Source: Paramyrothecium sp. XJ0827
Taxonomy: Eukaryota > Ascomycota > Sordariomycetes > Hypocreales > Stachybotryaceae
NCBI GenBank assembly: GCA_020881915.1
Contig: JAJFPB010000006.1
Coordinates: forward strand, 3,286,001-3,350,000
Reading direction: 5' to 3'
DNA: 64,000 nt
Shown: positions 7,025 to 55,584 of the stretch, piece by piece
How positions within the stretch are numbered: the first letter of the stretch is position 1
Layout: each line of letters begins with the position of its first letter
The notes under the pieces: generated by a model
Seen by the model: only the letters and a program-made list of their open reading frames with translations
What the model was told of the DNA's origin: nothing
Database searches by the model: none
Translations under genes and position numbers: made by a program

Positions 7025-7354
7025 ATGGCCTTCCAGATGACAGTTCTTTACCCTAAGCTCGAGGCAGACGATTGGTTCAAGCTGGACTACTACCTCAACG
7101 ACCACTTCAACCTCGTCAAGGCCGCATGGTCCGCTCATGGTCTCAAGAGCTGGCAGGTGCTCAAGTACAGCCCTTCGCCAGATGGAACTCCCGCCCCGTA
7201 TCACGTCGGCGCAGCAGTCACATTTGAGACAGCCGAGGCAGCCCAGGCGGCACTTACCTCTCCAGAGTCACAGGGTGTGAAGGCTGATACACCAAACTTT
7301 ACAAACACGACGCCAATTGTGCTATTCGCCACTGTGGAGGCCGCGTCGTCGTAA
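7025..7354 (+). CDS. EthD-domain small protein
   Basis: Single exon, 109 residues, with a good start context (cacaATGG). It begins MAFQMTVLYP and has a dimeric alpha/beta-barrel pattern. A first strand (MTVLYPKLEADDWFKLDYYL) is followed by a helix with HFNLVKAAWSAHG, then YHVGAAVTFETAEAAQAAL and a final strand. This fits the EthD family (about 100 residues), which includes small dimeric proteins of ether degradation and of fungal polyketide clusters. The substrate is unknown. No signal peptide or membrane segment is seen. It lies between the PKS/P450 remnants and the gasdermin-like gene and could be a leftover of the metabolite cluster. The family call is fairly sure, the role is not. Confidence 0.75.
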   Translation: MAFQMTVLYPKLEADDWFKLDYYLNDHFNLVKAAWSAHGLKSWQVLKYSPSPDGTPAPYHVGAAVTFETAEAAQAALTSPESQGVKADTPNFTNTTPIVLFATVEAASS

Positions 7355-7574: not shown

Positions 7575-8622
7575 TCAATTTTGGCAGTCTTCCATATTCG
7601 GCAGCATATTGACGTCCCGGGTGATCTTATCTGCTTCACGATAGACCTCCCAGTACTCGTCGTCAAAATCGTCAACGAGTGCATCCCTGTTATCGGCATC
7701 CTCAACCTCGAGCTCCAGTGCGTCGTCGCCGTCCTCCTCACCCAGAACTCCTCCACCGGCATAAGTGTAGTCGGGGTAAAGTTCGAAGAAGTTGATTGGT
7801 TGTGTTTCGTCGTCGTCCATTCTCAATGCTGGTCGAGCATCGATGAGCTGATACTGCGCCGCCCACACACCCTGTTGTAGATTCTTGCTGTCACAGGTGG
7901 CGACGAAATCCTTGCCAACCTCAATCGATCCACCAACAGGGGCTGCTGATAGGGCTGCCACTAATGCGGAGCTGATACCAAACGTAGCAGAGGGACTCTT
8001 CTTGACAATTGTGGCAGCGGTCACGTCACTCAATTCAATAAGCCCCGTGAGACACCAGATCTCTGGAATGGGCTTGAGTCTGGCCCGGTGTAAGACGTAT
8101 TTTGTGCGGGACACCGTCAACCATCGCTTGAGATGCTCCTTTACTCCCTTGGCGGGGAGGACCTTTTCTTGGAAGAAGTCACGGACCATGTCACTAATCG
8201 ACGTGAGAAAATCGGTCCGATCGTAACACAAAGGGGTCATGTACCTACCCAGGGATTTCCACTCGTTTACCGCCCGTCGCCATGATGACCTTGCGTTTCT
8301 CGGAGCTCATACCTGCTCCAAGTCTACCAGTTTCCAGGACTTCCACCTCGGCATTGATGCTCCAACCGTGCGTGTTGGCGAAAGTGCCGCTGAGCGGGGC
8401 TGTGGTGGTCCAGTATGATAACTCATCGTCGCTGTGAATGTCAATCTTTGAACCAGTAGCTCACAGAGGTCTAGTGCTGGAGCGGAGGACTCACGATAAA
8501 GCTGGTATCTGACAATGTGGCACGTGAGTCGGAGTTTTGTAGTTGCCAAGTACAAGGTGGCCAAGCCTGATGTCATGGGCACGGCCATACAGATAAAAGG
8601 TGGCAGTCTCTCGGTATGGCAT
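7575..8622 (-). CDS. Candidate fungal gasdermin-like pore-forming protein (HET-Q1/RCD-1 type)
   Basis: I assemble three exons, 8622-8495, 8431-8249 and 8193-7575. Introns are 63 and 55 bases with GTGAGT..CAG and GTAGGT..TAG ends, and the frame closes exactly (309 residues). The start has context GCCGCGATGCC. The N-terminus reads FYLYGRAHDIRLGHLVLGNY. The core has PEIWCLTGLIELSDVTA, a Gly/Ala/Ser-rich stretch (ISSALVAALSAAPVGGS), then GVWAAQYQLID. This order resembles the late part of a gasdermin pore domain, where a strand with 'VVTE'-type sequence precedes a 'GSILAFxVAQL' strand. The last 60 or so residues are strongly acidic, which could act as the short cleavable tail known in fungal gasdermins. 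No signal peptide is seen. The divergent neighbour encodes a TPR-CHAT protease, a partner type reported for fungal gasdermins. Gene structure is firm; the family call is an inference from pattern and neighbourhood. Confidence 0.6.
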
Positions 8623-9484
8623 CGCGGCGTTTTTAACGGAAGTTAACTCAGCTCGTACCTCTCTGTTCGTACATCTAGAAATCTGGGCTGCCCTTCATAA
8701 GTGAATTTGATTGACAAGACGTCTATTAATGTGGAAAGATTGACGTTGCGACCAGTCAAAGCCCGACAGCAGACACAGTGATTATGTCAACAAGAGTACC
8801 TTGTCATGACTGGATTGAATCCTGAGCTCTCCTTCAGCCAGGCTTTAAATCTTCCCAAGTGCCTTTCAGCTCCATTAGCTCTAGTAAGTCGACATGCATA
8901 TCAAGGACAGGGCGTTGGTCCAATGATAATCGTGAAGGAGTCAGTGACATAAAGCTCATAGTAATTCTGCTCGTGCCCAAAGTACTGAAAAGCTGCATGA
9001 CAAGCCTTACAGCCTCACCTCTTAGCCTGCTTTGCTGCACCTCAGCTGATGGACTAGGGGCTGGATGCAAGCAATGTAGACTACTAGTTAGGACTTTGCG
9101 GGGGTGGTTGATGCATCGCAAAACGATAACTTTTACCACCACCACAGAGATGGCTATCAAGGCGCTAATGCATCCCTAAGAGCTCTCAGACATTCAGCCG
9201 CTGCGCTATATGTGTCTAAGTCTTCGAGACCTTGTGGCGGTTCAGGTGGCGGCCTGCTTCAATATCCTTGTGATGCGTCAAGCCGATAGCCATGCATGTG
9301 ATATCAGCGAGCCCTCTGCACTTTCCAAAAGCTAAAGGGATAACTTGTCTTGCCTTCATAAACCACATTCTTAGTGTCTTGATGCGCTGTATACCAATCC
9401 TGCTGATGTCATGCCACTATACAGTGAGGATTGACTAGTAAATCTGACTGATTACTACAGACTGATCTCCACGCACTTGTCGCC
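8623..9484. promoter_or_regulatory. Divergent intergenic region between gasdermin-like and CHAT genes
   Basis: These 862 bases separate two head-to-head starts, so they should hold both promoters. No clear TATA box stands out. Minus-strand fragments around 8905-9000 look weakly protein-like but are closed by stops and have no convincing splice signals, so I do not call a gene. Confidence 0.5.
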
Positions 9485-12400
9485 ATGGACTTTGGCGAGG
9501 TCCTCCATCTTTTCGGAGGGTCAATATTTCCCGAGGAGTGTCGTGGCGATTTCCACCAAATCGAGAGGAACATTCGGAGAATCGAGAGCGCAGGCTCTCC
9601 CACCCTGGAAGATAGGGTGCGAACATGTCTGCTCCGAGGCGTCTTCGAAATGTTGCGCGGAAACTATCGAAAGAGTCAAGCATTCCTGAACAATGCTCAC
9701 CAATACGAAGGCGAGGTCGACATCAGATGGAAGGCTCGGCTTGACCTTTACGATCGACTCAACCTATGTTCCAAACTGACACCTCCCCAAATCCGTTTCC
9801 GTTCCAATCTGGGGGGATCTGCGTCAACGATCCATGAGTGTGAGCTCGATGCCCGAAAGACCCTCGGTACATCTGTCCCACTAGATACAGTAACCTCCAT
9901 TGACGGCATGTGTGAGAGCCAGATCATCCAAGCCCTGCGGCCGACGTACATTGCAAGCTGGGTATCGGCCTGTCTCCACCCGCAGTCTGCCTCAGCAGGA
10001 TTGAAAGCGACCGCCGAAAAGCAAAAGGGGGTTCTTGGGAGCACGCCACCGCCGGTTATGTTCAAAATGATAGAAATGGCTCAATTCTCAGCCGTTCTGG
10101 GCTACTTCACGCGACTGAAGTGTGAAATTGACCCTAAGAACACTCTGCTGCCACCCACGGCCGCTTTTGCAGCGGCACAGGCCAACATACATGAACAAGA
10201 TTTGATCAGTCAAGCTGTACTTCAGATCGTCCTTGGCGACAGGAGTATCTCACCCCCTTTCACGAGCCCTTTGGCCCTCAACTTGGTCATACAGGGTTCG
10301 CTACTAGGCTGGGAGAATGAAGAGTGGGATAAAGCCGAACCGTCGTTTGCGCTCGAACAAAATCACGAGGCAACCGCACATACGCTGCTGCTTTAGAGTA
10401 CATCCGAAATGTGGCGGCTCCACGGATACGGGGCGCTGTGTCTTTCCGCCGAGCCTGCATCCTGCACATGAGTGCCGTTCAAGCATTGGGGAGAGGAGAC
10501 CAGAAGCGCGCCGATGCGCTGTTTTCTGAGGCTGCTGCAAACTTTTACTCGGCTGAAGATGACTTTGTCTTGGACGAAGCTCACTTGCAAATGATAGCCT
10601 GTCATAAGCTGTTACTCGACATCAGTCGCGGTGAACACTACCTTCTTGAGGACAGAGCCGCGGAGATTGGGTTATGGGGCTTGTCATCTGAGAATACGGC
10701 GCTCGCCCAGTTTCTTGGCACTATGATGATGAGGTATGCAAGGAGGGTTTTCCTCGATCAGTCACGCGTTGATCTCGCCCAGGTGGGTATCAATTGTGCG
10801 CGCGCTTGCTTTCGGTCTTTGAAGGACTCCGTTTTTGTTTTGCAGTCCGGGCTTGCAGACGCTCAGTTAAAACACCAATCCGGCAACTTTGTGGCTGCAC
10901 AGGTTGCGATTGACACTATCCGTGCAGAGACCACGGCCCTGGATTATCTTCGGACTCTCGCATCGAAGAGCACGGAGAACGAACACGTCTTGGGCCTCCC
11001 TATTGTCAACCTGTTCACCGGGCTCAACCGTATAGTCTCAAATGTGTACAGCTCGGCCAACGACGCCAACGCAATCCTTGGCTGGCGTAGAGAATATCGA
11101 CGCCTCAAAGCGGAGCTGAAAGTAGGTCGAATTCTTGCGCGCCAGCAAATCTCACAGTCAAGCATGGCAGAGTCAGGGGAACACCTCCGTGACACCTCCG
11201 GTCACCTGGTAGACGCAGAAGAGCTGTTCAATGAAACCGAGGCAGCGTCTGATCTTGCTGATATACACAACGATTATATGGCGCAAGGTTATGCAGCACT
11301 GGATGAGGCTGATATCGACCGATATCACAAATGCCTGGAGGACTCTCTGATTGAGAGTGAAAAGATTGACCGAGCAAGAGACATCCGGTTGACACACAAT
11401 ATTGTGGCCTACGTCGCGCTTGGTAACTTCGACAACGCCCGTGAACTTGTCAATGGTGCGATTGATGCCACTTTTGGTGGCTGTGCAAAGAGCCTGGTCA
11501 CTTCAGAGCTACGGAATGTCCACATTGAGGGGATTGCAATTAGCAATGGAGTCAAAATCGACATTAATGCATCTGAACGGGCCATATCACTGTGCTATCT
11601 GTCACATGACTGGGAAAGAGGCCTCAAGGTGCTTTCGGGGGTTGAAAAAGCCTTCCCAGACTTGCTCTCTGTAGCGCATCCGGGCCTCGAGCGGACGGAG
11701 TGGAAGTTGGGGACCTACATCGCCAGTATATGGGAACATAATGGCGAGGCCTACAAAGCATTCTCGTGGTACATGTGGTCCTTGCGGTCCCTGCAAACAC
11801 AAAGAACGCGCGTTGAGGATCCTGATGCAAGACGGGGTATGGGCTGGTCTATCCACAACTCCAATCTCTTCGCCGGACTTATGCGACTGTCGCTAGCCTT
11901 TTGGGGACGCCGAGATTCAAACCCGGCACCCGAACCTCCGCAACACTGGGGCTTGGTGGCTGCTAACTGGCTTTATCAGGCGTTTGTGTTCATGGAAGAC
12001 TCCTCTGCCCGGACACTTCTAGAGCTTATCATTACCCACGACTCAGCCACAGTTGACAATCTGGAGAACTGGTCGGCCAGGTCATACCGACGTCGACAAG
12101 TTGACGACCTCAAGTCAGTGCAAAGGATTCAGAAAGAACGTGTGCTCGACGCCGAGAAAGCAGTCGCAATCGTCAAGAAAACCCCAAAAGCCGCCGCTGA
12201 CTCAACGCATCTGAAAGAAAGGAATCGAAGGTTGAAAGCTCTCCAAAGAGAGACCGACGAACTGACACGCCTTAGCAAAGACCTTGAGAAATGCCAGCTA
12301 GAACTTGAGCAAGATAGTAACGAACCTTACCGACAGCTCTCTGAGGCATCCAGTGCACTTCTGGCAGCAACACAATACCAGATTGACACGACCGCGCTGT

Positions 12401-13593
12401 TTGCCGCGATAACCCCCGATGCAGCCGTGGTTGAGATCAATACTTCTCGAGGTGGCCTTATTGTGCTCGGAATCACCAGGAAAGGCATCGAGGTTGCCCA
12501 TCAAGACCCTATCAACGAGATCGAACTACGAAAACTTGTTTTCCCTTACATTCACGCTTTACGGAACAATGAATTAAAGCGGGAGAACGCAGAGCTTGCT
12601 GCTAATCTCTCCTCGATCTCAGACACCATCCTCAACCCGTTGCATGATCTTTTGGATCGTGTCGAGCACGTAATCTTCGTCCCATCTTCTATATTCGCAT
12701 CCTTCCCGTTCAGCTGCCTCCTTTACAAAGACTCACCCCTCATCCTTCACAAGGCTGTATCCCAGGTCCCTAGCCTCGGCGTGCTAGAGCGACTCGTCAA
12801 AGCAAATGAGAGAAGACGGACACCCGAGGCGACATCACCAGTCAAACCCAAGGTGTTCGCGCTCGTCCACCCCCACAGGGCCTCCGAGCAACGGCCCTCG
12901 GTTGTCTATGGTGCCCTCAACTTGTACCGCCTGTTAGGAACCCCTCCATATGTTCCATCGGCCGTGGATGAAGACAAATTCGCGGCCGAATACCGCGAGG
13001 CGGCAATCGTACACATTGGCACGCATGGACACCAGTCGGCACTGTCACCATGGCAGTCATACCTGTCGTTGGCAAAGCGCTTCAGAGTGATGGAGCTAGC
13101 CAAGCTAAACACACACGCGGCTCTAGTGGTCTTCTGCGCGTGCCTCTCCGGACTGGGCAAGGTGACCAACGGCAACGACGTGCTTGGTTTCTCTCATGCA
13201 GTGCTGCAATCGGGCGCCCAGGTATACATGGGAGCGCTATGGAAGGTGAGCGAGCTCGAGACACTGCTTTTGATGAATCTGTTCTACAAGAAGCTGGCGG
13301 ATGCGAATGAGAAGGGAGTGCCCACAGACTCCATCGCCAAGGCGTGGCAGCACGCCCAGGTTACGATATTACGCATGAATAGACAAACGGCTATACAGCT
13401 ACTGCAGGAAGCGCTGGAGGACTGGGAGTACGCCGAAAACAATGGCGTGAACCCTGTCGGCTTCGTGCCGAATGGAAAAGCGTGGTTGGAGCACCAGATT
13501 AAGACTCTAAACTGGGACGACGAGCATTTCAAGAACCCATACTATTGGGCATCGTTCTCACTGATTGGGAACAGCTCGCTCAATTTGCGTTAG
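9485..13593 (+). CDS. TPR-CHAT caspase-like protease, apparent frameshift near 10.3-10.4 kb
   Basis: The ATG at 9485 (CGCCATGG) opens a 303-codon frame ending at TAG 10394-10396. The coding signal continues in another frame from about 10333 to the stop at 13593. Together this gives a protein of about 1,370 residues. The N-terminal two thirds is helical and repeat-like, with Ala/Leu-rich segments of TPR type. A charged coiled region lies around 12130-12320. The C-terminal third is a CHAT domain (12340-13593), the caspase-like fold also found in separase. The catalytic His is in VHIGTHGHQ (about 13009-13035) and the Cys in FCACLSGLG (about 13135-13160). Both are present. Such proteins act as regulated proteases, and the head-to-head gasdermin-like gene is a plausible substrate. 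The frame change needs a one-base loss, or a poor intron 10296-10396 with a GTTCGC donor. Domain calls are firm; substrate is inferred. Confidence 0.85.
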
Positions 13594-14132
13594 GGCTGGA
13601 CCGGAAGACGTTGTTATGGTGCCACAGAGGAGAGGTGATGTCCAAGCAAGCGTCGTCGGCATGGCTAAGAAGCCCAGGAATGAATTTGGGCGGGCCAGAG
13701 GTGCTCTTGTCAAACTTACTTCAAGTAAACACCACCTCTTACCACCATGGATATGCAAATTCGCTGAATGGTTCTGTGGTGGTTAGTTACAGTCTATATG
13801 AAAGAAAATTCTAAAATGGCAAGCCTACTGACTGATTCACAGATCGATGTGGCCGTCACCGAGAACCATGTCGAACCAGGCTTTGAGGGGGCTGTCGTCA
13901 ACAAAATAAGTTCCCCCCAAAACTGGTCGACGGATCGGTTTGATCGGACTTGGAAGGTATAATGGGTGACTACTACACAAACTCAAGTTTCAGCTGCTTG
14001 TGGACTTAGGGTACAAACATCGGATAAAATGCATTCTTACAGATACTCTTATTAACGCAGCCCTGAGCATATTATCTCATTTGACTTCCAAAAAATAATA
14101 ATAAATATTTATAGGGTTTTTTTAATCACACC

Positions 14133-14200
14133 TTTTTTTTTTAAAAAAAAAAAAAAATTTAAAAAAAATTTAAAAAAAAAATTTCTTTTTTAATAAAAAG
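14133..14200. repeat. T/A homopolymer tract
   Basis: A run of 10 T is followed by 15 A and then alternating A and T runs, almost free of G and C for about 68 bases. The T and A runs are complementary and could fold back. It may be a matrix-type or terminator-like AT tract, or a relic of an inserted retroposon tail. Length in the assembly may be imprecise. Confidence 0.8.
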
Positions 14201-14749: not shown

Positions 14750-15121
14750 ATGCTCAAGTCTGCCATTATCTCCATTATTGCACTGGCCATGCCAGTTGTG
14801 TGCCAGGTTACCGAACCATCCGCTGTGCAATTCTCAACCACATCGCATATTTGGTGTGCAACGGGAAAAAAGGATTATTACATTTCAGACGGCGCTTGCT
14901 CTAGTCTTCCTGGAAAGTGGCTCGCCGTCAATGGAATCACGCGAACATGCCGTGGTAAGTAAATTAACTTTTCCCGTGAGTATGTGGAGTTTTCTCACAT
15001 CTCCTCAGTATTCATCTACAAGAACAACGACTGCACTGGGGAGGAAATGCAGGTATATGCGCACACTGGCAGATGCTATGACATTGACGACTATTATTCC
15101 ATCAAAGCATTTTGCCACTAG
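14750..15121 (+). CDS. Small cysteine-rich secreted protein
   Basis: Two exons, 14750-14954 and 15009-15121, with a GTAAGT..CTCAG intron of 54 bases, give 105 residues. A hydrophobic signal peptide (MLKSAIISIIALAMPVVCQV) is followed by a mature part of about 85 residues with six Cys (in HIWCATG, GACSS, TRTCR, NNDCTG, GRCYD and the terminal FCH), enough for three disulfides. I recognise no named family. Such proteins are often effectors, antimicrobial or cell-wall factors in fungi, but function here is unknown. It has its own TATA box and stands alone between two gene-poor stretches. Confidence 0.75.
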
Positions 15122-33860: not shown

Positions 33861-34306
33861 CTAGCAATAGCACGAGAAAACAATTTGAAGTATTTAAAGC
33901 TTACTTACAAGATATTATTATCCTTGAAGTTTTATTCTTATGTACAGGAAGTATGATTATTGCATCATTCATTTGTAGTATTCTTTGTCTACGGCGTTGC
34001 TTGGCCGGGATGTTCCCGTGGAGGCGAGGCATGTGGGGGCCACCAAAGACTGCGGCCCCATAACTGCTCGGGTTTTGTCACTCATCGAAACTCCTCGCGG
34101 TATGACGTGGTGCAGGATTTGCATCAACTTCACCTTGCGCGACATACAGTAGACTCGAGCTGGCGTTGATCGGACTCTTCTTATAACACAGTGCTTTGAG
34201 ATCACCGAATTCTGTGGCTTGTGCCCGAAGAGTTGAAAGACAGGACAGCTTGGCCATTGATTAGGGCTCACACAAACGAAGCCTCACCACCCAACGACTC
34301 TCAACC

Positions 34307-35317
34307 ATGGCCAAACAAGGCACCGCGTCCTTTGCGACGCCGCTCCCGCAGGGTCCACGCTCCGAGGTGCTCGAATGGCGCTTCCCCAAGCCCCACCACC
34401 AGTACGTGCTCACCGGGCGGTCGAGGGCGGCGTGGCACACGTCCTTTGTGATCCCGCAGCTCAACCTGCTGCTCGACGCCGGCCTGTGCGTCAACAAGGT
34501 GCGCCCGAAGCACATCTTCCTCACGCACGGCCACAGCGACCACACGCTGCTGGCGCCCGCCTTTGTCACGCGCGACGACCCCCCCGACATCTACTGCCCC
34601 GCCGAGGTCAAGGGCGTGCTCAACGACTTCATCCTGGCCAAGTCGATCCTCAACAAGGGCGGCCTGCTGGGCGTCGACGACGCCGAGAGGCAAGGCTACC
34701 TCAAGGAGGGCGAGCAGGTCGTGTCCGCCAACGACGACGGGAAGCGGAGCAACGCCGAGCTGGCCTGGCTCAAGACTCACGCCACCTATGGCCTGAAGGA
34801 CGGCGACGTGGTGGACTTGCGGAGAGCGAAGAGCATCACGGCGACGGCCTTCAGCTGCGACCACACGGTCCCGTGCCTGGGCTACGTCTTCAGCACGACG
34901 TCGCACCGCCTCCGGCCCGAGTTCACCTCGCTCCCCGGCCCGCAGCTCAAGGCCCTGCGCGAGTCGGGCACCGAGCTCACGGCGCCGCACACGACGCCCA
35001 TCTTCGCGTTCCTCGGCGACACGACGGCGGCGACGCTGGCGGCCGGCCCGGCGTGGCTGGAGGCCGGCATCCCCGTCGTCATCACCGAGTGCAGCTTCCT
35101 GCGGGAGGAGCACCACGCGCAGGCGGCGAAGACGAAGCACACGACGTGGGCGGACCTGGAGCCCGTGGTCCGCAGGCACCCGCGGACGACGTTTGTGCTG
35201 ACGCACTTCAGCCTGCGGTACAGCGACGGCGAGATCGCGGCCTTCTTCAAGGCGCTGCCCGACCCGCCCAGCAACATCGTCGTCTGGGCCGACGCGGAGG
35301 CCACGGATGGGGCGTGA
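34307..35317 (+). CDS. Metallo-beta-lactamase fold hydrolase, RNase Z-like
   Basis: Single exon, 336 residues, starting in context CAACCATGGCC. The metal-binding motif FLTHGHSDHTLL (HxHxDH) is at about residue 72. Further ligands are likely in AFSCDHTVPCLGYVF, AFLGDTTAATL and FVLTHFSLRYS. This layout matches short tRNase Z-type enzymes, which cut the 3' trailer of tRNA precursors. No zinc-exosite flexible arm is obvious, but the segment after CPAEVKGVLNDFI may serve. The gene is very GC-rich compared with the spacer before it and marks the start of the conserved half of the window. It could instead be a related hydrolase of unknown substrate. Confidence 0.85.
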   Translation: MAKQGTASFATPLPQGPRSEVLEWRFPKPHHQYVLTGRSRAAWHTSFVIPQLNLLLDAGLCVNKVRPKHIFLTHGHSDHTLLAPAFVTRDDPPDIYCPAEVKGVLNDFILAKSILNKGGLLGVDDAERQGYLKEGEQVVSANDDGKRSNAELAWLKTHATYGLKDGDVVDLRRAKSITATAFSCDHTVPCLGYVFSTTSHRLRPEFTSLPGPQLKALRESGTELTAPHTTPIFAFLGDTTAATLAAGPAWLEAGIPVVITECSFLREEHHAQAAKTKHTTWADLEPVVRRHPRTTFVLTHFSLRYSDGEIAAFFKALPDPPSNIVVWADAEATDGA

Positions 35318-37652
35318 TCCGGAGCCGGAGGCAAGAAATCAAGATTGGGCGGTACTGCGTCGAGTGCGGCCGACGCTTGGCTTTCGCTCGCCGAGGAAAG
35401 CTTGAGCACGGGCTGATCCGACGGAACAAACCGAAGCCCAAATCTCGGTCAATGACCGGTCAGGCCAGGCCAGATCAGGTCAGCCTGTTTTGCCTCCGCG
35501 CAGATTGCATGAGGGTATGTCGACACACATGCCCCAGACCTACACATGCATGCATGCAGGATGTTTGACAGCATGGTGGTTTCAAGAACAGTAGTCCTGC
35601 AAGACACACTGGCAGCGCGTCGGGGGATCTTTTGCGTTCATGCCTCTCAGCAATGCAGCAGCAGCATCAGCAGCAGCAGCATCAGCAGCCCAAAATGCCG
35701 ACCACGCGGCTCCTACCTACATGAACCGCCGCCCGTCGGGGCCTCGTCAATGCCTTGCTCGCCACATGAAATTAAGCGTACTATAAAGCCATGCTATTGT
35801 TTTCCTCGTTTCCACTTTGGGCTTGAACCGTCCACGTAACGCACCCAGGCCTGTTGCCAACTTCCAAGGCACGAATTGGGTGCATTGCCGAGCCGGCGCC
35901 TCCCTCCCTGCGCCGGGCAGCAAGAAAACCAAGACCCGGCCGAAGCTTTCGGGCAATGATCTTCGCGCTCTGCCGCCGCTTGTGGGCGGTCGGCATAAGA
36001 AAGCAAAAGGCGCCGTCGATGTGGAAGCCCTGTTTCAGGCACTGGCTCCTGAGGGACCCGGGACCCTTGGGCGTCCAACGCTAGTTCGGTTGGGCCTTGG
36101 ACACGAATTAGTGAGGCGATCAACAGCCCAAAGCCTCCCAGCCAGAGCATCGAGCCGCCCCACTGTCACTTTCACTGTCCACTGTCCAGCGTCCACTGCC
36201 AGATCGACCGAACACACGCCCCCCCTCCTGTCCCCTCCCCCCCCCAAGGCTGGTCCCCAGTCCGGGGCACTGGGTCCCCCGACCTCTTCTTGCAGCCTGA
36301 CGTTTCTCTCGTCGAGGGCCAAGTTCTCGGCTAGGACTTGTGCCGGCGCACAACGAGCGAAAGCAAATGGAAAACGCAGAGTCTTTCGGAATAGCGCCCT
36401 CCACCAGGAGAGCAAAACCACAGGGCATGCTGCACAATCCTGGGCAAGCCACAATATACGTGCGGAATTTTCAAGGGGTCTTTTCTTTCCTTCACCTGTC
36501 GCTGCACTGGCCGAAGGTCATTTTTCCCACCAATGAGTCGCCCTCCGTGCCTTGCACCCCGTGCATAAACCAGACAACACGGGACACCGCCCGCGGGCGC
36601 TCAGGCTAAACGGGACATGGGCACAAGACCACGGAAGAGAAAGGTCTGTACAAAGAAAGGAGCACTTGGGCAAGACCGCGTAAAATGGCCACATAAATTT
36701 GGGTATAATTTACCAAATTTACGTGGGTATTTCACAGTACGAGTCGACGTCACAGCCCAGCATTGCTAACTTCTCTACTCTCATCTCTTCACACAGTCTC
36801 CCCGGTCCGCGCGCCTGGTGTGCATTCATGCTCCCCGAGTTACTTCATTTATCCACATCTACGGTCCGCGCGCAACCCAGAACCACTTAATCGGAGGGTA
36901 GGGGGGGGAGAGACCCCTTGTTCAGCCGACCCCCCAGGCATGCTCCTTGCTTTGGGCTGCCAGCTCATCGCGCCAAACAAGCGAAGAAGGAAAAAAAGGC
37001 TTTGGAAATGGTTGGACCCAATGGGTGCTGCCCAGCGACCGCTCTCTCGCCCAATTGGTTCCACCGGCCGCCACGAACCACCCACCAGCCGCCCTTTGCA
37101 TCGCAAGCCTCGCGTGAAAACCAGACGAGAGTAGCGAGAGAACTGGCCATGCACACACGCCCCCCACGTCCACCTAGGCCCCCCCTCCTTCCTCCCTCCC
37201 ACCCCAAAGACATGGCTTCATATGCGAGGCCGCCGCCTTCGAGTAGGAAAGGGCGTGCCGTGTATTCCCATATATTAACCTTCCAAACGCTCAACCTTGG
37301 TTCCAGTGTTTCCAACAAACCGTTTCTTGTTCCCCCGCACCCCTTACCGTGTTCGCTTCTCGCCGAGCCGTTCAGCTTATATCAAGGCCTGCGGCCCGCT
37401 TAAAGCTTGACTGTATAAGTCGCCAATCCTCGAACTCAACCACAACCCCCCAACGCCGGTTCACTTCTCTGATCAAGTCGCCCTCGTGTCTTCTGCATCT
37501 CCAAGCCAGAAGCCATCTATCTACACTGCTCTATACTCAAGAGCCAAGCATCGACCACTGTGTTCAGCTACTCCCCGGCTCAACACCACCATCCTCGATC
37601 TACACAACCATCCGCCACCCATCTCGTACATCACGACCACCAACCCCACAAC
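35318..37652. other. Long spacer before small cysteine-rich ORF
   Basis: No gene with convincing support. ORFs here overlap on both strands in GC-rich sequence without domain motifs or splice closure. It contains an interrupted CAG repeat (35654-35690), C-runs near 36240, and a long CT-rich leader before 37653. Confidence 0.4.
35654..35690 (+). repeat. Interrupted CAG trinucleotide repeat
   Basis: GCAGCAGCAGCATCAGCAGC and its continuation form a CAG array with CAT interruptions. No open gene covers it convincingly. Confidence 0.85.
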
Positions 37653-52991: not shown

Positions 52992-53586
52992 CGTGCAGGC
53001 GGCCTGAAGAGGTTGGGAGAGACAAGGCGGGTTGCAGAAAAGTGGTGTGGGCACTTGTTTCACAGGCCGGTTGCTGCGAGCTGTACGAGTGTGATGCAGC
53101 CTCTCCAGCGCTGGTGCTACTAAAAAAAAAAAGGACTTGAGGCCCAATCTTGAAGAGCAGGAAAAGGTGCGAAATTTTGCTTTGATTGCGTTTGCGTTTG
53201 TGGAGGAAGAGGGTTTTGACTCACGAGCGAGGTGCAGTGGCAGCTGTGAGATTAAGGTAGGGGAGGATCATCGGCTTCGCCAGCTGTTGGCACTGTTGAA
53301 AGTAGACACCTAGACAAACACAGAGCGAGGCAGCATTGACTGCGGTGTGTTTACATTGTGCTGTTGGCACCGAATACCAAGGTAGCAGTTAAAGTCGGCG
53401 ACTGAATATGGTATTTCGCATCTCTATCAATAATCGTGCTTGTTCTCACGGTTCGCCGGCAATGTGCATGTTCGCGCCCATGGCAAAATATTATCTAACT
53501 GCATTCTATCAAGCAGGCAATCCACCAAGCCATGGCTCAAAGACCAACATCAAGGACATCCCTTCGCTAATTTTTGGACCCCGTAC
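52992..53586. other. Spacer before MVD1 end
   Basis: 595 bases holding the RUS promoter and the 3' flank of MVD1. No gene seen. Confidence 0.4.
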
Positions 53587-54822
53587 TTATCGCTTCGCAG
53601 GCTCGCCGTTCTCATCAATCAGATACTCATCGGTCTTCTGGGGACCCTCGCCGACGCCCGTCATGATGACCCGGCTGACGCCGTCCTTCAGCACGCCCGC
53701 AATGTTGTCCTCCAGCTGCACGTCGGACTTGACGCTCGCGGTGCCCTCCTTCCAGCCAGTGACGCCCTCGAGGGCGGGGTAGAAGGCGCCGAGGATGGTC
53801 GAGGCGTGCTCCTCGAGGTAGTAGACGACGCAGTTCGGGCCGGCGTCGAAGGTGTAGGCGGCGATCGTCTTGCCGGCCTTGGCGTTGATGCTCTCGACGG
53901 CGCGGATGGCCGCCTTGGAGACGTCGTTCATGTAGAAGATGGGGGGGTACGTGTCCGCGCAGCTGGCGTGGAACGAGTTGGAGTCGCGCATTGTCACCTC
54001 GGCGAACTTGGGAAAGTCCTTGTCGCGGATGGCCTCCTCCATGAGGATCATGTTGGCGGGCACAACCCTGGTGATGCGCTCCTGGAAGAGCCCCGACGTC
54101 GCGACCGTCTGCTGCATGCCGGAGGTGGAGGAGACGCCCTTCTTGGCCGCGCTGACGACCAGGACCAGAGCTCGCATCTCGGGCCAGTGCGACGCCTCCG
54201 CAACCAGGTCGGCCCTGGAGTCGGTGCCGTCCCTCTTCTCTCCCATCCGCCAGGCAACGTAGCCTCCGAAGAGACTCCTGCAGGCCGAGCCGGATCCCTG
54301 TCGCGCAATGAGCGACAGCTCCTCGGGCGAGTCGGGCAGCTCGTAGAGGTCCGCGATGGCGCGCACCAGGGCGGCGAAGCCGGCCGCCGACGAGGCCAGG
54401 CCGGCGGCGGTGGGGAAGTTGTTCTCGGACACGAGCTTCAGGGGCTGGCTGGACAGCTTGGGCAGCGACGAGTCCTTGGCCTCGAGGGCGGCGCGGCGGG
54501 CGCGCAGCTCGCGGAAGCAGGCCTGGGTGCGGGCGCCGGAGATGTCGGACAGCTCGCCATTGAGTGTCAGGCTGTCGCCGTCGGTGAAGGACTCGGAGCA
54601 GGAGGCGGTGGTGAGGGTGCGGAGGTCGGCCTGGGAGAGGGTGACGGAGAGGGAGCTGTTAGTCGGGAGGTTGAGCTTCGCGTCGCGTTTTCCCCAGTAC
54701 CTAGAATTGCATTGTCAGTCCTGGCATTTCCTCAGGGTGTTGTTCACAAGGGTGGCTCACTTGACAACGGCGATGTTGACAGGCGCAGTGGTGCTTGCGC
54801 GATAGACCTTCTTGTCCGCCAT
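53587..54822 (-). CDS. MVD1: Mevalonate diphosphate decarboxylase
   Basis: Two exons, 54822-54761 and 54700-53587, give 391 residues, the normal fungal length. The start ADKKVYRASTTAPVNIAVVK joins YWGKRDAKLNLPTNSSLS, the conserved N-terminal block. The GHMP-kinase-like ATP loop NFPTAAGLASSAAGFAAL and SGSACRSLFGGYVAW follow, and YTFDAGPNCVVYYLEEH carries the conserved Asp. The enzyme turns mevalonate diphosphate into isopentenyl diphosphate, the last step of the mevalonate pathway, in the cytosol. Single-copy essential gene in yeast (ERG19). Intact with clear splice sites. Confidence 0.97.
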
Positions 54823-55584
54823 TTCGATTGTCGGTTCTGGAGCCGGGGTTTGCGGTACGTTTGGCTGGGGTTTGGCGGTAGCTTCGAGAAGAGCGAGCGG
54901 GGGACTGTTTTGGGGAGATATGCTTCAGGTGCCTGCTTCGACCGCTCTGCTGATATGAATCAATCACGGCTGAGGGTATCACAAACACTTTTCCGGGCGT
55001 CGAGTGTCTGGGAGATGAAATTCCCCTTGATGCCCCGCCAATAATTAAGGCGGGGTCTAAAAAGCGCCGACCGCCGACCGGGAACTAGACCCCTCGAAAA
55101 GGCCCCGACCGCCTCCGGCTTCAGGCTTCGTCAGGGCCTCTGCTCACGCTGCGCTACCCTGTATTGGGATTGTCTGGCCTGGCTTATTGCACGAGCAGCA
55201 TCGTAATGCGGTAAAAGATGGGCACCAGACAGTAGAACTAAATCCCGCATGTATCAGATAGTATGAGGTGACTTGTTTTAGTCGCGTTCGGTTTCATTGA
55301 CTGCACAGGCTGATGTATTCACAATGGTGTCCATTTCCACCTATTTCCCAGCAGTATCACACACTCGTCCCCTGCCCTTCCGAGACATCTCACCTCCATG
55401 TAGTAAGATTCCTCGTCCCAAATCAGCGCCTCTCCAATGCGTAACCGTAACCGTAATATTCAAATCCGAGAGCTCTCGACAAAGAAAAGATCATTCATAT
55501 GCATTCATGTTCGTGTTGTGTGTTTCCGTCGTACTCGTGTCTTCGAGTTCGTTTTCGTTTGTTGAGGACGAGGCTTCATGTGCC
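54823..55584. other. Spacer upstream of MVD1
   Basis: Holds the MVD1 promoter. A long plus-strand ORF that crosses MVD1 is its antisense shadow. No gene seen. Confidence 0.4.

Follow-up and report, generated by a model that had tools for sequence, protein, structure and literature searches.

A conserved head-to-head gene pair in Paramyrothecium that encodes a CHAT protease and a candidate gasdermin-like protein

Gene clusters in which a fungal gasdermin is paired with a CHAT protease (Q2-like clusters) were reportedly described by Clave et al. in 2022 and are said to include a TPR-CHAT pair of Podospora anserina. Approximately 1900 gasdermins have been recognized in 400 fungal genomes, and approximately 80% of them are clustered with protease genes; the clustered protease is of the S8 type for about 63%, and a further 19% have a CHAT gene no more than 10 kb away (PMC10197012, in excerpt). 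Similar figures are given elsewhere, with a value of about 17% for cysteine proteases, CHAT among them, beside fungal gasdermins (PMC12881547, in excerpt) and a CHAT share of about 17% (PMC10989679, in excerpt). In P. anserina, moreover, a TPR-bearing CHAT protease activates a gasdermin with which it is clustered, as tested experimentally (PMC12881547, in excerpt).

Here we describe a locus of Paramyrothecium sp. XJ0827 that is probably a new and very divergent member of these gasdermin/protease pairs. The locus was found in a stretch of 64,000 nucleotides (the window) and consists of two genes, A and B, whose features are collected in Table 1. Narrow searches of the open-access literature found no paper naming this pair. 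The two genes are arranged head to head, as the original prediction had proposed, with start codons at 8622 and 9485 and 862 bases between them.

Table 1. Features of the gene A/gene B locus, given as positions in the window
Feature	Position	Strand	Remark
Gene A	7575-8622	-	three exons and two GT-AG introns, giving 309 aa
Gene A exon 3	7575..8193	-	stop at 7575; contains, in order, basic segment, IWCLTG...VWAAQY block, acidic tail and C-terminal helix-like segment
Gene A intron 2	8194..8248	-	55 bases, GT-AG; junction spanned by homologs
Gene A exon 2	8249..8431	-	splice model
Gene A intron 1	8432..8494	-	63 bases, GT-AG; junction spanned by homologs
Gene A exon 1	8495..8622	-	start codon at 8622; same start as in P0002
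Shared intergenic region between start codons	8623..9484	.	862 bases; candidate bidirectional promoter
Gene B	9485-13593	+	head to head with gene A
Gene B first open frame	9485..10396	+	residues 1-295 match residues 1-295 of P0016 with 71% identity
Gene B second open frame	10333..13593	+	rest of N-terminal region and CHAT; 77% identical to P0016 across 1065 aa
Frame break in gene B	10370..10392	+	orthologs continue without a gap
CHAT protease domain (PF12770)	12607..13572	+	C-terminal in gene B
T-H-G, presumed catalytic His 898 of long open frame	13021..13029	+	invariant in 12 of 12
A-C (A-C..G), presumed catalytic Cys 937 of long open frame	13138..13143	+	invariant in 12 of 12

The inferred product of gene A had been put at 309 residues, and this size was upheld by a reading frame with two GT-AG introns. 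We consider the gene model to be sound because those homologs that reach that far align with the product through both exon junctions. Eleven homologs were found in a protein search, and the total came to 15 after a profile search of 5.8 billion sequences, in which the 7993 candidates sharing the most words were scored. Organism names were attached to three of the 15: P0001 (HJFPF1_08046 of Paramyrothecium foliicola), which is 81% identical to gene A; P0002 (310 aa, from Hyaloscypha finlandica), which is 67% identical; and P0015 (129 aa, from Cladophialophora psammophila). P0001 is labelled LOW QUALITY PROTEIN by its source, and hence the P. foliicola copy of gene A may itself be irregular. When P0002 was used as a query against the strain's own genome (a 51.8-Mb assembly of 15 contigs), the only matches among the best candidates scored were the three exons of gene A. 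Just past the 3' end of gene A, the window also contains the coding sequence for a small EthD-like protein (7025-7351 on the plus strand; PF07110, 26 bits against a cut-off of 22).

The product of gene A has a characteristic distribution of charge. The acidic tail noted in the original prediction carries a net charge of -23 over 88 residues, and it is preceded by a basic segment, located before IWCLTG, with a net charge of +8. The same values for segment and tail (+8/-23) were obtained for P0001, and the corresponding values were +7/-20 for P0002, +6/-13 for P0003, and +2/-6 for P0009. The pattern is strong in four of the five sequences and weak in the divergent homolog P0009. Such a succession of basic segment and strongly acidic tail would fit a gasdermin-like protein that is inhibited by its tail.

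Does gene A encode a gasdermin? In sequence searches, which were run without a positive control for fungal gasdermins, Pfam had no family for gene A and revealed no gasdermin among the 11 homologs (a single match to Lon_C had an E value of 0.2), and neither NCBIfam nor PADLOC had a match for P0001 and P0002, the two homologs scanned. A phmmer search of the PDB with gene A gave no match at E ≤ 10, whereas a search with the profile of the gene A family gave five weak matches, none of them a gasdermin. Likewise, PF04598 matched nothing in the strain's own genome at E ≤ 10, and no candidate went past a first look. AlphaFold models of two gene A homologs had mean pLDDT values of 39.5 and 32.1 and were unusable. 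Foldseek and VIA returned no meaningful match for the first of these models, with no gasdermin among the matches listed, though a model with a pLDDT below 40 could have missed one.

In the gasdermin N-domain, a hairpin is expected to be followed by two helices. Both low-confidence models exhibit a hairpin and then two helices, with long strands following them in the first model only, and the helices in the basic segment are predicted at low confidence only. The case for a gasdermin-like product of gene A is circumstantial, and is built on its size, its linkage to a CHAT gene, the hairpin and two helices, the basic amphipathic segment, and the acidic tail.

The identification of gene B as a CHAT gene was confirmed by its match to PF12770 (E value of 3.2e-37; 129 bits against a curated cut-off of 24). 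The histidine of T-H-G and the cysteine of A-C, which we take to be the catalytic pair of the CHAT domain, had been said to be kept, and they are indeed invariant in an alignment of the window protein with 11 homologs, drawn from 23 proteins found by a search with gene B. Its orthologs are P0016 (HJFPF1_08047 of P. foliicola) and P0017 (of H. finlandica), and it is 35% identical to P0018, a CHAT protein of Aspergillus fumigatus (1357 aa; 203 member sequences). A search of the PDB with the long open frame gave nothing at E ≤ 1.

The original prediction had also assigned a TPR part to this protein, and here our results were less favorable. TPR models had no match at E ≤ 1 in the long open frame, in P0016, or in P0017, and the part of the first open frame that was scanned (9485-10360) matched no Pfam family, TPR included, up to an E value of 5. 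No known family was recognized in the N-terminal part of the window protein. Among 12 members of the gene B family, TPR_12 was detected in three and TPR_2 in two at E ≤ 1, the best E value being 0.00029. Since TPR matches in the CHAT family to which gene B belongs are only sub-threshold, the designation is plausible but weak.

Gene B, which starts at 9485 and ends at 13593, is not a single open frame, a break that the original prediction did not mention. From residue 304 onward, P0016 is matched by the second frame, which differs from the first and is not joined to it, whereas the orthologs in P. foliicola and in H. finlandica continue through the corresponding position without interruption. 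The window DNA still contains the residues of the junction, which speaks against an intron at the break; many introns are formally possible, and all were rejected, as the residues that flank the junction on either side are retained in the orthologs. The break represents either a pseudogene or an error of assembly. With gene B out of frame in this assembly, the present copy may be inactive.

Several other features of the window were observed. A short tract of very high A+T content, with extended runs of T and A (14065-14200), is located downstream of the CHAT gene, and at 14750-14962 a small protein begins whose N-terminus resembles a signal peptide and which contains several cysteines. In two places, 34261-35568 and 53434-55044, the same DNA is covered by long open frames of the two strands; the plus-strand frames (435 and 536 aa) had no Pfam match at E ≤ 0.001 in a scan that covered the plus strand.

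A lack of conserved linkage of the two families in other genomes had been named beforehand as one of two grounds for refuting the prediction, the other being the lack of a gasdermin fold; such linkage was found in both P. foliicola and H. finlandica, as judged from locus tags and equal contig sizes. In P. foliicola, the genes bear the consecutive tags HJFPF1_08046 and HJFPF1_08047, and a contig of 4,220,981 is recorded for both. In H. finlandica, the records of P0002 and P0017 each give a contig of 130,029 bases, which is strong but indirect evidence that the two are on one and the same contig. P. foliicola belongs to the Hypocreales (Sordariomycetes) and H. finlandica to the Helotiales (Leotiomycetes). 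The linkage of gene A to a CHAT gene is conserved in both of the other named fungi in which the two partners were found; for C. psammophila, the source of P0015, no gene B partner was present among 7990 candidates scored. This conserved linkage is the main new fact to emerge from our analysis, and it supports the earlier proposal of a self-contained module of two genes.

Gene B is not the only CHAT gene in the strain. The genome contains 20 CHAT matches, three of which have in-frame stops that may be due to introns or to decay of the genes. Searching the genome with the long frame of gene B recovered the frame itself and one weak CHAT match (E value of 0.0085). The gene A profile, applied without a positive control, found nothing in 1861 ORFs flanking ten of the 19 other CHAT matches (best E value of 2.7). 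Two further CHAT loci were inspected visually, in each case for 4 kb to a single side. A possible second module consists of a 283-aa protein with an acidic stretch (L019:4165-5013, plus strand; C4:680475-681323, on another contig of the genome) and a TPR-rich CHAT gene (TPR_10, 17 stretches), with which it is head to head. By eye, IYMIVGF...ICAFQY of the 283-aa protein is similar to IWCLTGL...VWAAQY of gene A, and we presume that the blocks in both proteins resemble a gasdermin consensus. A one-block pattern matched nine ORFs. A two-block pattern, which is circular because it was written after both proteins had been seen, matched the 283-aa protein alone among the 1861 ORFs, and 13 of the 15 gene A homologs (the exceptions being P0011 and P0015). 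When the 390 ORFs with 100 aa or more were shuffled, the pattern matched none of the 39000 resulting sequences.

We do not claim kinship between the 283-aa protein and gene A. The comparison gave an E value of 0.48 by BLASTP and of 0.071, at a negative score, by hmmsearch against this single protein, and hhalign aligned the acidic stretch only (probability of 0.8%). In global alignments, six of eight comparisons fell below the shuffled mean; the full-length comparisons with P0002 and P0009 were above it, at scores that 42 and 3 of 500 shuffles, respectively, also attained. A control ORF (presumed to encode a P450) attained by chance a z value of 4.35 against gene A, the highest of 67. In local alignments of the block, at least 38 of 1000 shuffles scored as high in 28 of 30 tests, and the two exceptions both involved P0014, under two matrices (3 and 4 of 1000). 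PDB searches with the 283-aa protein, and with its alignment to the gene A homologs, revealed no gasdermin.

We judge it reasonably probable that the two genes constitute a cell-death module that is complete in itself and belongs to the gasdermin/protease kind already published for fungi. The product of gene B would then be a cytosolic sensor-protease, in which an N-terminal part of approximately 1000 residues, weakly TPR-like, would keep the caspase-like CHAT domain inactive until the arrival of a trigger. (The triggers of such fungal sensors have been named a major open question; PMC12881547, in excerpt.) The product of gene A would be the substrate, with an N-terminal domain of approximately 220 residues in which beta hairpins surround the basic amphipathic segment and with a strongly acidic tail of approximately 88 residues that would keep the protein off membranes. 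CHAT would most likely cut this substrate close to where the tail begins, at the border with the domain of approximately 220 residues, and so release the N-terminal part, which could then bind acidic lipids and form pores, leading to death of the cell. With the two genes laid out in this way, sensor and executioner would travel together.

Such a module could be dead in this strain, its CHAT gene having become a pseudogene and gene A surviving without an activator or with another, and we rate the chance of this as slightly less than even. This explanation is compatible with the reading of the pair as a gasdermin/CHAT module, and it draws on the failure of the gene B frames to join at a position through which two database orthologs read, as well as on the death-and-birth regime described for fungal gasdermin genes (PMC10197012, in excerpt). 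Yet both halves of gene B retain their identity to P0016 (71% and 77%), the second frame runs open through 1086 codons, and lone frame changes are frequent among assembly errors as well. It is, on the other hand, very improbable that genes A and B are unrelated neighbors brought head to head by chance. The abundance of CHAT matches in the genome (20), the absence of a gene A relative beside ten other CHAT loci in the search described above, and the lack of a detected partner for P0015 would be in keeping with such an accident, but the two families are consecutive in P. foliicola and are on contigs of equal size in H. finlandica, a member of another class.

More pertinent to the identity of gene A is the idea that its product is a CHAT-controlled executor of a different and undescribed fold, which would preserve the logic of a protease and an acid-tailed substrate. 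No search tied gene A or its relatives to a gasdermin, and only 15 relatives were recovered from among 5.8 billion sequences (with 7993 candidates scored). The force of these observations is lessened by the lack of a positive control for fungal gasdermins; both weak models, moreover, have the hairpin and two helices expected of the gasdermin N-domain, and the published partners of fungal CHAT proteins with a similar size and layout are gasdermins. On balance we regard an undescribed fold as rather unlikely. We are similarly doubtful, while considering it worth stating, that gene A is the founder of a family of its own, made up of death effectors that CHAT releases. Its product would be either a gasdermin too divergent to be seen by Pfam, by the PDB searches, or by AlphaFold with at most 15 homologs, or a protein of a new fold that uses the acid-tail switch in the same way. 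It would be restrained by electrostatic pairing of the acidic tail with a pair of basic helices, and the gene would have been retained alongside a CHAT gene across two classes of Ascomycota.

Returning to the interpretation that we favor, that of a gasdermin/CHAT module, the pair would, if it works as proposed, provide a small and conserved test system for CHAT-triggered death in fungi. The principle is not new, since fungal gasdermin/CHAT pairs have been published and one TPR-CHAT pair has been proven in P. anserina, but the gene A family has been missed by current profiles despite its conserved linkage to CHAT.

Finally, we compare the pair with the known systems. The CHAT incompatibility gene hetB of A. 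fumigatus (1327 residues), for which the involvement of a gasdermin has been left open, is in the same size class as gene B (PMC11138114, in excerpt), and P0018 may or may not be hetB. RCD-1 of Neurospora crassa (257 and 244 aa in the excerpted sources) is similar in size to the product of gene A. Its affinity for membranes requires that a pair of amphipathic helices carry positive charge (PMC12881547, in excerpt), and basic amphipathic helices are a feature that gene A could share. RCD-1 differs in that it needs two allelic variants and, by the excerpted account of PMC11760362, has no inhibitory C-terminal domain and undergoes no observed proteolytic step, whereas gene A has a long acidic tail. 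HET-Q1 of P. anserina (278 aa) is a small protein from which a protease removes a short C-terminal piece (PMC10989679 and PMC12881547, in excerpt), as may also happen to the product of gene A; the tail of gene A comprises approximately 88 residues, as compared with the approximately 40 that are removed from HET-Q1 (PMC10989679, in excerpt). The protease in that case, HET-Q2, is a subtilisin-like serine protease, unlike the CHAT protein of gene B. As for the gasdermin/CHAT (Q2-like) clusters, the present locus departs from them in that its small partner is only a candidate gasdermin, its TPR part is sub-threshold, and its CHAT gene is out of frame. What it has in common with these clusters is the layout as a whole: adjacent genes, a large CHAT protein, and a gasdermin-sized partner whose C-terminal extension is short.
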